Assembly (NCBI GenBank): GCA_021297815.1 | Contig: JAJTGK010000011.1 | Coordinates: 1-41,916 of the forward strand | From: Planctomycetaceae bacterium | GTDB taxonomy: Bacteria; Planctomycetota; Phycisphaerae; Phycisphaerales; SM1A02 | DNA length: 41,916 bases | Reading direction: 5' to 3' | Shown here: one piece after another, positions 39,109 through 40,899 of the stretch | Numbering within the stretch: the first letter of the stretch is position 1 | Layout of the letters: every line of letters starts with the position of its first letter | Position numbers and translations under genes: made by a program | Notes under the pieces: model-generated | Told to the model about the DNA's origin: nothing | Seen by the model: the letters and a program-made list of their open reading frames with translations, nothing else | Database searches by the model: none

Positions 39109-39876
39109 GTGGCCACCGAGCGATCGCCCGTTCGCATGCTCTACAGGCGCGAAGCGCCGTCATTCGCGGCGCTGCGCGAGTCGCTCGCTGCCGCACGCTA
39201 CGCCGCCGTGTCGCCGCCCGATGCGCTGGCGGAGTGGGAAGCGCGCGACGGCGTGGGAACACGCGTGCGCGCATGGCGCGGCGCGGTGCTTGTCGAGGCC
39301 GCGGACCGCGCGCATGCCGAGGAGTTCGACCGCGTGTTCCGTCGATCGCTGCCGTCGGACGGCCCGATTCCCGACGGCGGCGCCGCGCCCGCGTGGATCG
39401 AGCGCGTCGCCGCAAGCGACGAGTCGGGCAAGGGCGAGCGCACGGGCGCGCTCGCGGTGGCAGCGGTCGTCGTTCCGATGGCCGATGAGGATGCGGCGCT
39501 CGAACAGGGCATTCGCGATTCGAAGGAATGCACGCGCGCCGAGGTCGTGAAGCTCGCGGAATGGACCTGCGCGAGATTCCCGCACGAGATTCGCGTGATC
39601 GCGGCAAGCGACCGCGAGGCCGCGCTTCACGCGTGCGGAGGAAACGAATCGCGGCTGCTCGCAGATCTGCACGCGGAGTGTCTCGCGGCTTTGTGCGCGC
39701 GGGAACCGTTCGCCTTCGCCGTGGTCGACCGCTTCGCCCCCGCGCGCCCCGTTGCGGCACAGCTCGCGCGCACGCACCGCTCGATCGTCGTCGACGAGTG
39801 CGCGCGCGGAGAACGGCATGTCGCGTGCGCGGCCGCATCGATCCTGGCTCGGAACGCCGTCGCCACCGCGCGCTGA
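39109..39876 (+). CDS. Ribonuclease HIII-like protein, C-terminally short
   Basis: AASDESGKGERTGALAVAAVVV, DSKECT, AVVDRF, ERHVACAAASILARNAV; stop follows at once, with no LPKGAS-type C-terminal segment. Confidence 0.72.
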   Translation: MATERSPVRMLYRREAPSFAALRESLAAARYAAVSPPDALAEWEARDGVGTRVRAWRGAVLVEAADRAHAEEFDRVFRRSLPSDGPIPDGGAAPAWIERVAASDESGKGERTGALAVAAVVVPMADEDAALEQGIRDSKECTRAEVVKLAEWTCARFPHEIRVIAASDREAALHACGGNESRLLADLHAECLAALCAREPFAFAVVDRFAPARPVAAQLARTHRSIVVDECARGERHVACAAASILARNAVATAR

Positions 39877-39884
39877 TCCCAACA

Positions 39885-40159
39885 GGTGCCTGGCATGTGC
39901 CATGCAACTCCACGGCACTTCCCGTACCCGTGCACGGCATGTGCCAGCCACCTCCATGGCACATGCCGCGAAGGTGCCTGGCACCTGCCTGGCACCGATG
40001 CTCCACGCGCAAAGTGCGACGGCGCTCGACCTTGCGTCGCACACGCGGGTGCCAGGCACGAGCCAGGCACCGACACGGCATGTGCCAGTCACCTCCACGG
40101 CACATGCCGTGCACGGGCACGGGAGATGCCAGGCACTTGCGTGGTACATGCCAGGCACC
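39885..40159. repeat. Giant imperfect inverted repeat (two ~112-bp arms, 51-bp centre) containing nested hairpins
   Basis: 39885-39996 pairs in register with 40048-40159. Ends ggtgcctggcatgt / acatgccaggcacc are perfect over 14 bp; 39921-39945 pairs with 40099-40123 at 24/25; hand-counted total about 89/112. Confidence 0.92.
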
Positions 40160-40180
40160 GTCCCGCGGTACGGTTCGCCC

Positions 40181-40687
40181 ATGGACTCCGCCACCACCAT
40201 CCGCCGCCTGCACGAACACCGCCTCTGGACCCGCGCCAAGCTTCTCGCCGCCGCGCGCACCTGCACGCACGACGAGCTCACCCGCCCGTTCGAGATGGGC
40301 ATGGGTTCGCTTCTCGCCACGCTCACCCATCTCTGGGGCGCCGAGATGGTCTGGGCCTGCGTGCTCGAGCAGCACGACCCCGCACAGCCCTTGCCGCCGA
40401 TCGACAAGTTCGCCACGCTCGACGCGCTCGAGGCCGCGTGGCCCGCGCTCGATGCGCGCTGGGCGCAGATCCTCGCCCACGCGGCCGACCCCGCCTACCT
40501 CGCGCAGCCGAAGCCCCGCATCCGCGACGGCAAGACCTACACCACGAACGCGCACGACATCCTCGTGCATGTGTGCACCCACCAGCACTACCACGCGGCG
40601 CAGGTCTCGAACATGCTGCGCCAGATGGGGAAGCAGCTGCCTTCGTGCGACCTCATCTTCATGGCCCGCGAGCAGTGGACCGCCTGA
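40181..40687 (+). CDS. DinB-family protein
   Basis: MDSATTIRRLHEHRLWTRAKLLAAARTCTHDEL...LLATLTHLWGAEMVWACVLEQ...HVCTHQHYHAAQVSNMLRQMG: conserved His pattern of the DinB four-helix bundle. Confidence 0.8.
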   Translation: MDSATTIRRLHEHRLWTRAKLLAAARTCTHDELTRPFEMGMGSLLATLTHLWGAEMVWACVLEQHDPAQPLPPIDKFATLDALEAAWPALDARWAQILAHAADPAYLAQPKPRIRDGKTYTTNAHDILVHVCTHQHYHAAQVSNMLRQMGKQLPSCDLIFMAREQWTA

Positions 40688-40732
40688 GCGCGTCTCGCGC
40701 GCATGCCTCCGACCCGCAGCGGCTACACTGCA

Positions 40733-40822
40733 CGCTCGCTCGGGGCGCGTTCCGCAGCCGCGGAACGCTGAGAAGCACCCGTTGAACCTGATCCGGCTCG
40801 CACCGGCGTAGGGAAGCGAACG
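40733..40822 (+). promoter_or_regulatory. TPP (THI-box) riboswitch
   Basis: cggggcgcgttccgcagccgcggaacgCTGAGAagCACCCgttGAACCTGATCcggctcgcaccgGCGTAGGGAAgcg; P3 stem gcgttccgc/gcggaacgc; directly upstream of thiC. Confidence 0.95.
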
Positions 40823-40899
40823 GCGCCGTCCGCGCCGCTCCTTCGACGCCAACGGCCGGCGCGCAACGCCGCGCGACACGCGCGACGAAGGAGTCACCA

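Follow-up and report, generated by a model that had tools for sequence, protein, structure and literature searches.

Two co-directional genes of a freshwater planctomycete, an rnhC-like gene of the RNase HII/HIII type (39,109-39,876, + strand) and a gene for a DinB-family protein (40,181-40,687, + strand), are separated by a very large palindrome, and the locus raises the question of whether this sequence belongs to the junction or was brought there by a mobile family. The window, which is the whole stretch of DNA analyzed, was 41,916 nucleotides long. The two neighbours were assigned by Pfam matches to PF01351 (E 8.7e-11) and PF05163 (E 2e-17), respectively, and the upstream gene also matched the NCBIfam rnhC model TIGR00716 (E 2.2e-17), with a score under the cut-off of that model. 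The stop codon of the rnhC-like gene ends 8 bp ahead of the palindrome. Further downstream, a TPP riboswitch (RF00059, 67.6 bits; 40,731-40,831, + strand) was found between dinB and the next gene. As set out below, the palindrome is probably a non-autonomous, transposase-associated pair of the REPIN or TIR-dimer type and an enlarged, diverged copy of its family, and the family itself consists of paired palindromes that lie between genes of freshwater planctomycetes and were very probably spread by a small transposase with like palindromes on either side. The spreading of REP-type palindromes by Y1 transposases is still poorly understood, and the genus offers a natural experiment, with about ten species, transposase types matched to palindromes, and both empty and filled orthologous sites. 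Unusual features are the arms made of 11-base blocks and the recurrence, from species to species, of related copies next to the same genes.

The left arm (39,885-39,996) and the right arm (40,048-40,159), like the other parts of the palindrome given without strand, were complementary at 89 of 112 positions (79.5%), ungapped and with a coordinate sum of 80,044, around a centre of 51 bp (39,997-40,047). The original prediction, made from the letters alone, had described this geometry with a pairing of about 80%, and it was borne out. With the identical pairing test, other centres in the window reached at most 0.52 outside the palindrome locus. Registers offset by 11 or 22 inside the locus gave only 0.57-0.58 compared to 0.79 at the true axis, indicating that the mirror symmetry is real and exceeds a by-product of the repeat. 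The predicted RNA fold had an energy of -204 kcal/mol (z -15.2), and none of 200 shuffles was equally good, which answered the folding check proposed with the prediction. The DNA fold was also strong (z -13.7), and both strands folded far better than shuffled sequence.

The left arm was composed of ten 11-bp blocks, in the order GGTGCCTGGCA TGTGCCATGCA ACTCCACGGCA CTTCCCGTACC CGTGCACGGCA TGTGCCAGCCA CCTCCATGGCA CATGCCGCGAA GGTGCCTGGCA CCTGCCTGGCA, followed by CC, and its autocorrelation at lags 11, 22 and 33 was 0.54, 0.56 and 0.57, respectively, against a shuffle 99th percentile of 0.44. The right arm, inverted relative to the left, likewise contained ten 11-bp blocks plus CC (0.53, 0.67 and 0.54 at the same lags), and TRF reported a period of 22 with 4.8 copies at 40,055-40,160. 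The block consensus of both arms was (C/G)GTGCCTGGCA, most positions being conserved at 65-100%. No 11-bp periodicity was detected in the 51-bp centre (0.28 at lag 11), and only 10 of 25 positions of the centre paired about the large axis. The centre has its own stem, as predicted, formed by gtgcgacg (40,014-40,021) and cgtcgcac (40,035-40,042), with an axis sum of 80,056 that does not coincide with the large axis. The two local hairpins of the prediction, ggcatgtgcc and ggcacatgcc around a loop, were present at 39,936-39,967 (loop agcCACCTCCAt) and 40,077-40,108 (loop agtCACCTCCAc, oriented as in the left arm); the loop length of 11 to 12 given there has to be corrected to 12 in both. CACCTCCA occurred in both loops in one orientation, and the flanking stems suited both folds, again as had been noticed. 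Since the block is close to its own reverse complement, the arms match directly and inverted alike (79% identity over 76 bp as direct repeats), and the same near-palindromic blocks account for a directly repeated loop between stems that fit both folds. The left outer flank (39,877-39,884, TCCCAACA) occupies the position of a C-rich tag in other copies of this genome and is degenerate here, and the right outer flank (40,160-40,167, GTCCCGCG) partially matches the outward tag of the genome.

When the 3.03-Mb genome carrying the window (G000) was searched for related palindromes, as the prediction had recommended, 83 exact matches to GGTGCCTGGCA were found, compared to 2 for the reversed control. 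Most of them fell into about 25 clusters; copy counts were taken from pattern and BLAST searches, and the BLAST result agreed with the pattern count. The canonical copy consisted of two palindromic units of 55 bp, GGTGCCTGGCACGTGCCGTGCAGTGCCTGGCACTGCCTGGCACGTGCCAGGCACC, and the inverted doublet defined by its outer ends was the unit of the family, with 19 pairs in this genome. The units were 94% identical among themselves. Eight pairs had convergent, ten co-directional and three divergent neighbours, and three were at contig ends. Intergenic status was derived from a simple codon-usage gene call, approximate within the loci, by which none of the approximately 25 pair loci was inside a called gene except for one pair enclosing a transposase gene. 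A few GGTGCCTGGCA matches were single and had no surrounding palindrome (e.g. L061, L062 and L072). Long arms were found in the window copy and in L084 (C146:39658), which is also built of 11-bp blocks and is cut by a contig end. Contigs ended in or beside elements in G000 (C38, C124 and C146) and many times in G012; because contigs of draft genomes often end inside repeats, the copy numbers are underestimates. A similar CATAAGTC...GACTTAC hairpin was observed in the spacers of L084 (C146:39740-39786) and of L098, the rnhC site of G006, possibly representing a shared spacer type.

The perfect phasing of ten 11-bp blocks in both arms, together with tandem arrays elsewhere such as L203 in G012, could also be produced by a local 11-bp satellite that was turned palindromic by slippage or template switching and is unrelated to any mobile family. 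Such an origin is very improbable: it is largely refuted by dispersal, the same motif and pair architecture being present at about 25 loci and around a transposase gene, and the mirror symmetry at the true axis far exceeds that in shifted registers. Array growth may nevertheless explain the oversized window copy.

The prediction had stated that the window contains no transposase, and no Y1 transposase was found anywhere on the window's contig. The search that it proposed for a transposase carrying flanking copies identified an ORF of 202 amino acids on another contig (G000:C180:6935-7540) with family units on both sides. The product matched Pfam Y1_Tnp (E 1.9e-11) and NCBIfam REP_Tyr_transpos (E 1.7e-18, under the cut-off of the model), and the profile of its clade matched the solved TnpAREP structure 4ER8 (E 6.5e-5). 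The HUH histidines and the tyrosine of YIERNP were invariant in ten aligned sequences. The motifs NHVH, WEGR, YIERNP and WSSA of the alignment were compared with the table row for subclass 2.1 (PMC6006769), which gives NHVH, W[EQ], YIELNP and SS, the Y motif having L in place of R. By these motifs the enzyme fits TnpAY1 subclass 2.1 (TIRYT), whose members typically have a C-terminal HTH extension. Homologues were present in nine congeners, most of them flanked by palindromes on both sides and a few on the one side that was covered; for one G006 gene (L157) no palindrome was evident within 260 bp. Dispersal and a transposase gene with the same units together lend good support to the REP/BIME-type, trans-mobilised reading of the original prediction, with mobility and cleavage being what we infer from sequence. 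Counted against a role of the transposase were the sub-cut-off NCBIfam score, tags other than GTAG/GTGG, and elements in G011, where no transposase was detected in a genome that is 84% complete.

A second Y1 transposase of G000 was observed at L095 (G000:C94:11570-11782; locus coordinates 1429-1956). Behind it, at about 2020-2180, is a palindromic repeat of another kind (GGTGCCACCCGGGGGAGGCACC-like), which appears to represent a separate REP family. G000:C87:2460-2774 (L158) gave a third hit resembling Y1 transposases, more remote than the others (34% identity).

Each transposase type was accompanied by its own palindrome sequence. CCAGGTTGGTGC, taken from the flanks of the G007 gene, had 35 copies in G007, 13 in G014 and 31 in G012, compared to 0-1 in each of the remaining 13 genomes, and its dispersed copies were often in 11-bp steps. 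GGTGCCGGGTAGCT, from the G005 and G010 flanks, was found only in G003, G004, G005 and G010. The GTGCC type was abundant in 10 genomes, nine of them with the transposase, and the well-separated clade of G001, G009, G013 and G015 had neither the GTGCC type nor a transposase homologue. In database sequence JASGCF01 (L218, L224), titled Limnohabitans sp. MAG13 after a betaproteobacterium, an exact match to the congener G010 was observed; this entry is probably a mislabelled planctomycete MAG.

The outer flanks of the pairs carried a genome-specific tag (GNTCGGG-like in G000, GTTTCC in G004 and GTCTGGC in G003), and no tag was found by flank consensus on the spacer-facing flanks in the same genomes. 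A CGTC-tagged REP super-family was rejected, as CACCGTC occurred at some right ends and was not a general tag. A sigma-54 promoter reading of GG-N10-GC in the unit was set aside as a likely by-product of the GGCAC lattice. The spacers of G000 were 86-88 bp long in 11 of 19 pairs and had no detectable homology, the best spacer-spacer local score being 25 compared to a shuffle maximum of 29. Shared spacer ancestry was rejected on these scores and on those of 14-19 between spacers at orthologous sites. An exception in appearance is L203 (G012:C31:17641-18017), with four tandem units in exact 108-bp steps and visibly similar spacers; this locus stands apart from the others as a local amplification.

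Distances between unit centres fell into classes near 131, 142, 154 and 163 bp, and the main value elsewhere was 108-109 in G003, G012 and G002. These classes around unrelated spacers, the exact 11-bp lattice of the arms and the recurrence at the same gene ends are what would be expected of a helically phased binding array for a nucleoid protein, a gyrase/IHF-type protein or a partition-like system, with spacing under selection and the transposase a mere passenger. For classes above 100 bp, a comb with a period of about 11.2 bp was supported at p = 0.0002; with all classes the p value was 0.0096, and it was 0.29 once identical classes were merged across genomes. Strict helical phasing was thus not adopted, being suggestive and unproven, since the classes near 80 and 91 bp were also off phase. 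In addition, the block sequence changes wholly between transposase types, tracking the transposase and not a conserved host protein, and tags on the outer ends only fit transposition ends. We regard a binding array as improbable.

The rnhC-dinB junction was filled by pairs in G002, G003 and G010. The pair was cut by a contig end in G006 and G011, and the G012 contig stopped in GGTGCACGGCACGT just past rnhC, making an element at that site probable. In the empty-site comparison that the prediction had suggested, rnhC was followed directly by dinB in five congeners (G001, G004, G005, G007 and G008); G009, G013 and G015 were without dinB at the rnhC site. One genome represented each species, and filled and empty sites were compared between species only. 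On a tree of rnhC and threonine dehydratase, filled and empty species were interleaved, also between sisters. The rnhC-dinB gap was short in the empty species, so the spacer probably arrived with or after the element and is not old intergenic DNA.

Nine of 24 other G000 loci adjoined a well-conserved gene (at least 60% identity) that also neighboured an element in G003, G004 or G012, the element always being on the same side of the gene. This count was obtained by tblastn of called genes against just 48 sampled congeneric loci; chance sharing is expected, by a rough estimate that assumes some 25 pairs over 3 Mb, near 1% per locus. Such recurring sites are not predicted for a freely dispersing element. 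Units at orthologous sites were 84% identical, like non-orthologous units of different genomes (82-84% for G000 versus others), and the spacers there were unrelated. Vertical inheritance with sequence conservation was rejected, because orthologous-site units were no more alike than others. Within G004, G003 and G012 the identity between units was no higher than 82-84%, and G000 is therefore the one genome for which strong homogenisation is established.

The very stable fold, the occupation of the same junction in G002, G003, G006, G010, G011 and probably G012, and the nine further sites common to a congener could each be explained by a regulatory element that is fixed and under selection at this junction, acting as a bidirectional terminator, an mRNA-stabilising hairpin or an ncRNA. 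We consider this unlikely, if slightly less so than a binding array, because the junction is empty in five congeners and alternates between sister species, unit and spacer sequences are unconserved at orthologous sites, and family pairs also occupy about 24 intergenic regions elsewhere, convergent, co-directional and divergent. Furthermore, no terminator U-tract was found at the palindrome, and the Rfam search of the window region matched the TPP riboswitch alone, with no family for the palindrome. The original prediction had held that presence at one orthologous site across distant relatives, with a conserved RNA structure, would point to a fixed ncRNA. Six congeners do have an element there, one of them only as a fragment at a contig end, but its sequence is not conserved, so the site seems to have been occupied repeatedly and not to hold a fixed ncRNA. 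The data are compatible both with recurrent occupation of favoured gene ends and with old sites whose units have been overwritten.

For the transposase-associated pair that we prefer, a course of events can be proposed. In a single-stranded state, on the lagging strand or in a transcription bubble, each GTGCC/GGCAC arm would form a hairpin open to recognition, and a dimer of the G000 Y1/HUH transposase, encoded elsewhere, would bind the two outward-facing arms. The YIERNP tyrosine would cut at the tags just outside the arms, and the transposase would then move or recopy the pair in trans into another intergenic site. The 112-bp arms of the window copy, compared to 55 bp in the canonical unit, would reflect expansion of the 11-bp array; with arms twice the usual length and degenerate tags, this copy may be dead. 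Any effect of so stable a hairpin on rnhC-dinB transcription would be a secondary consequence. Movement of whole pairs is hard to fit with near-identical units around unrelated spacers of fixed length, which suggests unit-by-unit rewriting or selection on spacing. Units might even be written or overwritten in place at preferred gene ends, with the transposase complex measuring their distance along the helix in steps of about 11 bp across arbitrary spacers, so that positions persist while palindromes switch to the version of the current transposase; we give this a minor chance, somewhat better than that of a regulatory element.

Functionally the system resembles a REPIN/RAYT set, and the TIRtrons are its closest relatives. 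As in REPINs with RAYTs, an inverted doublet with conserved outer ends is the unit and one transposase would serve it in trans; dispersed extragenic copies and a Y1/HUH gene flanked by the same repeat were found here. Bertels and Rainey (2011, PMC3116915), who define REPINs, already note that the length of the spacer is more important than its sequence. In contrast to REPINs, which consist of short REPs, the family has units of 55 bp (112 bp for the window copy), the tags differ, and the spacers lack detectable homology even though the units are 94% identical. Intergenic inverted palindrome pairs linked to a Y1 transposase also occur in E. coli, as REP/BIME, but the GTAG/GTGG guide at the hairpin foot is absent here and both units and window arms exceed the 20-40 bp of typical REPs, so by tag and size this is not a canonical GTAG REP. 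TIRtrons and TIRYT-associated TIR repeats (Di Nocera and colleagues 2013, PMC3733652) likewise have a RAYT-like tyrosine transposase between long, partly self-complementary inverted repeats, which also form moderately abundant families of dispersed dimers. They differ from the present family, in which the arms form 11-bp lattices and unrelated spacers have a fixed length. GGGGWSAS was not found in the canonical unit or flank consensus; as only some TIRs share this motif (PMC3733652), its absence does not exclude membership. No description of this transposase clade was found in these papers on TIRtrons, REPINs and TnpAY1 enzymes (PMC3733652, PMC3116915, PMC6006769). The motifs NHVH, WEG, YIE-NP and WSSA agree with subclass 2.1, or Bertels group 1, whereas the TnpAY1 survey saw no REP-like sequences in the vicinity of genes of this subclass (PMC6006769) and most genes here have palindromes on both sides. 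The family ties dispersed palindromes to a transposase type reported without REP-like neighbours. Remoter planctomycete transposases of the same clade (L227, L229 and L231) were also observed to have palindromes of other sequence in their flanks, and the flank of L227 had 24 identical bases (GGTGCCTGGCACCTGCCTGGCACC) in common with positions 39,973-39,996 of the window.
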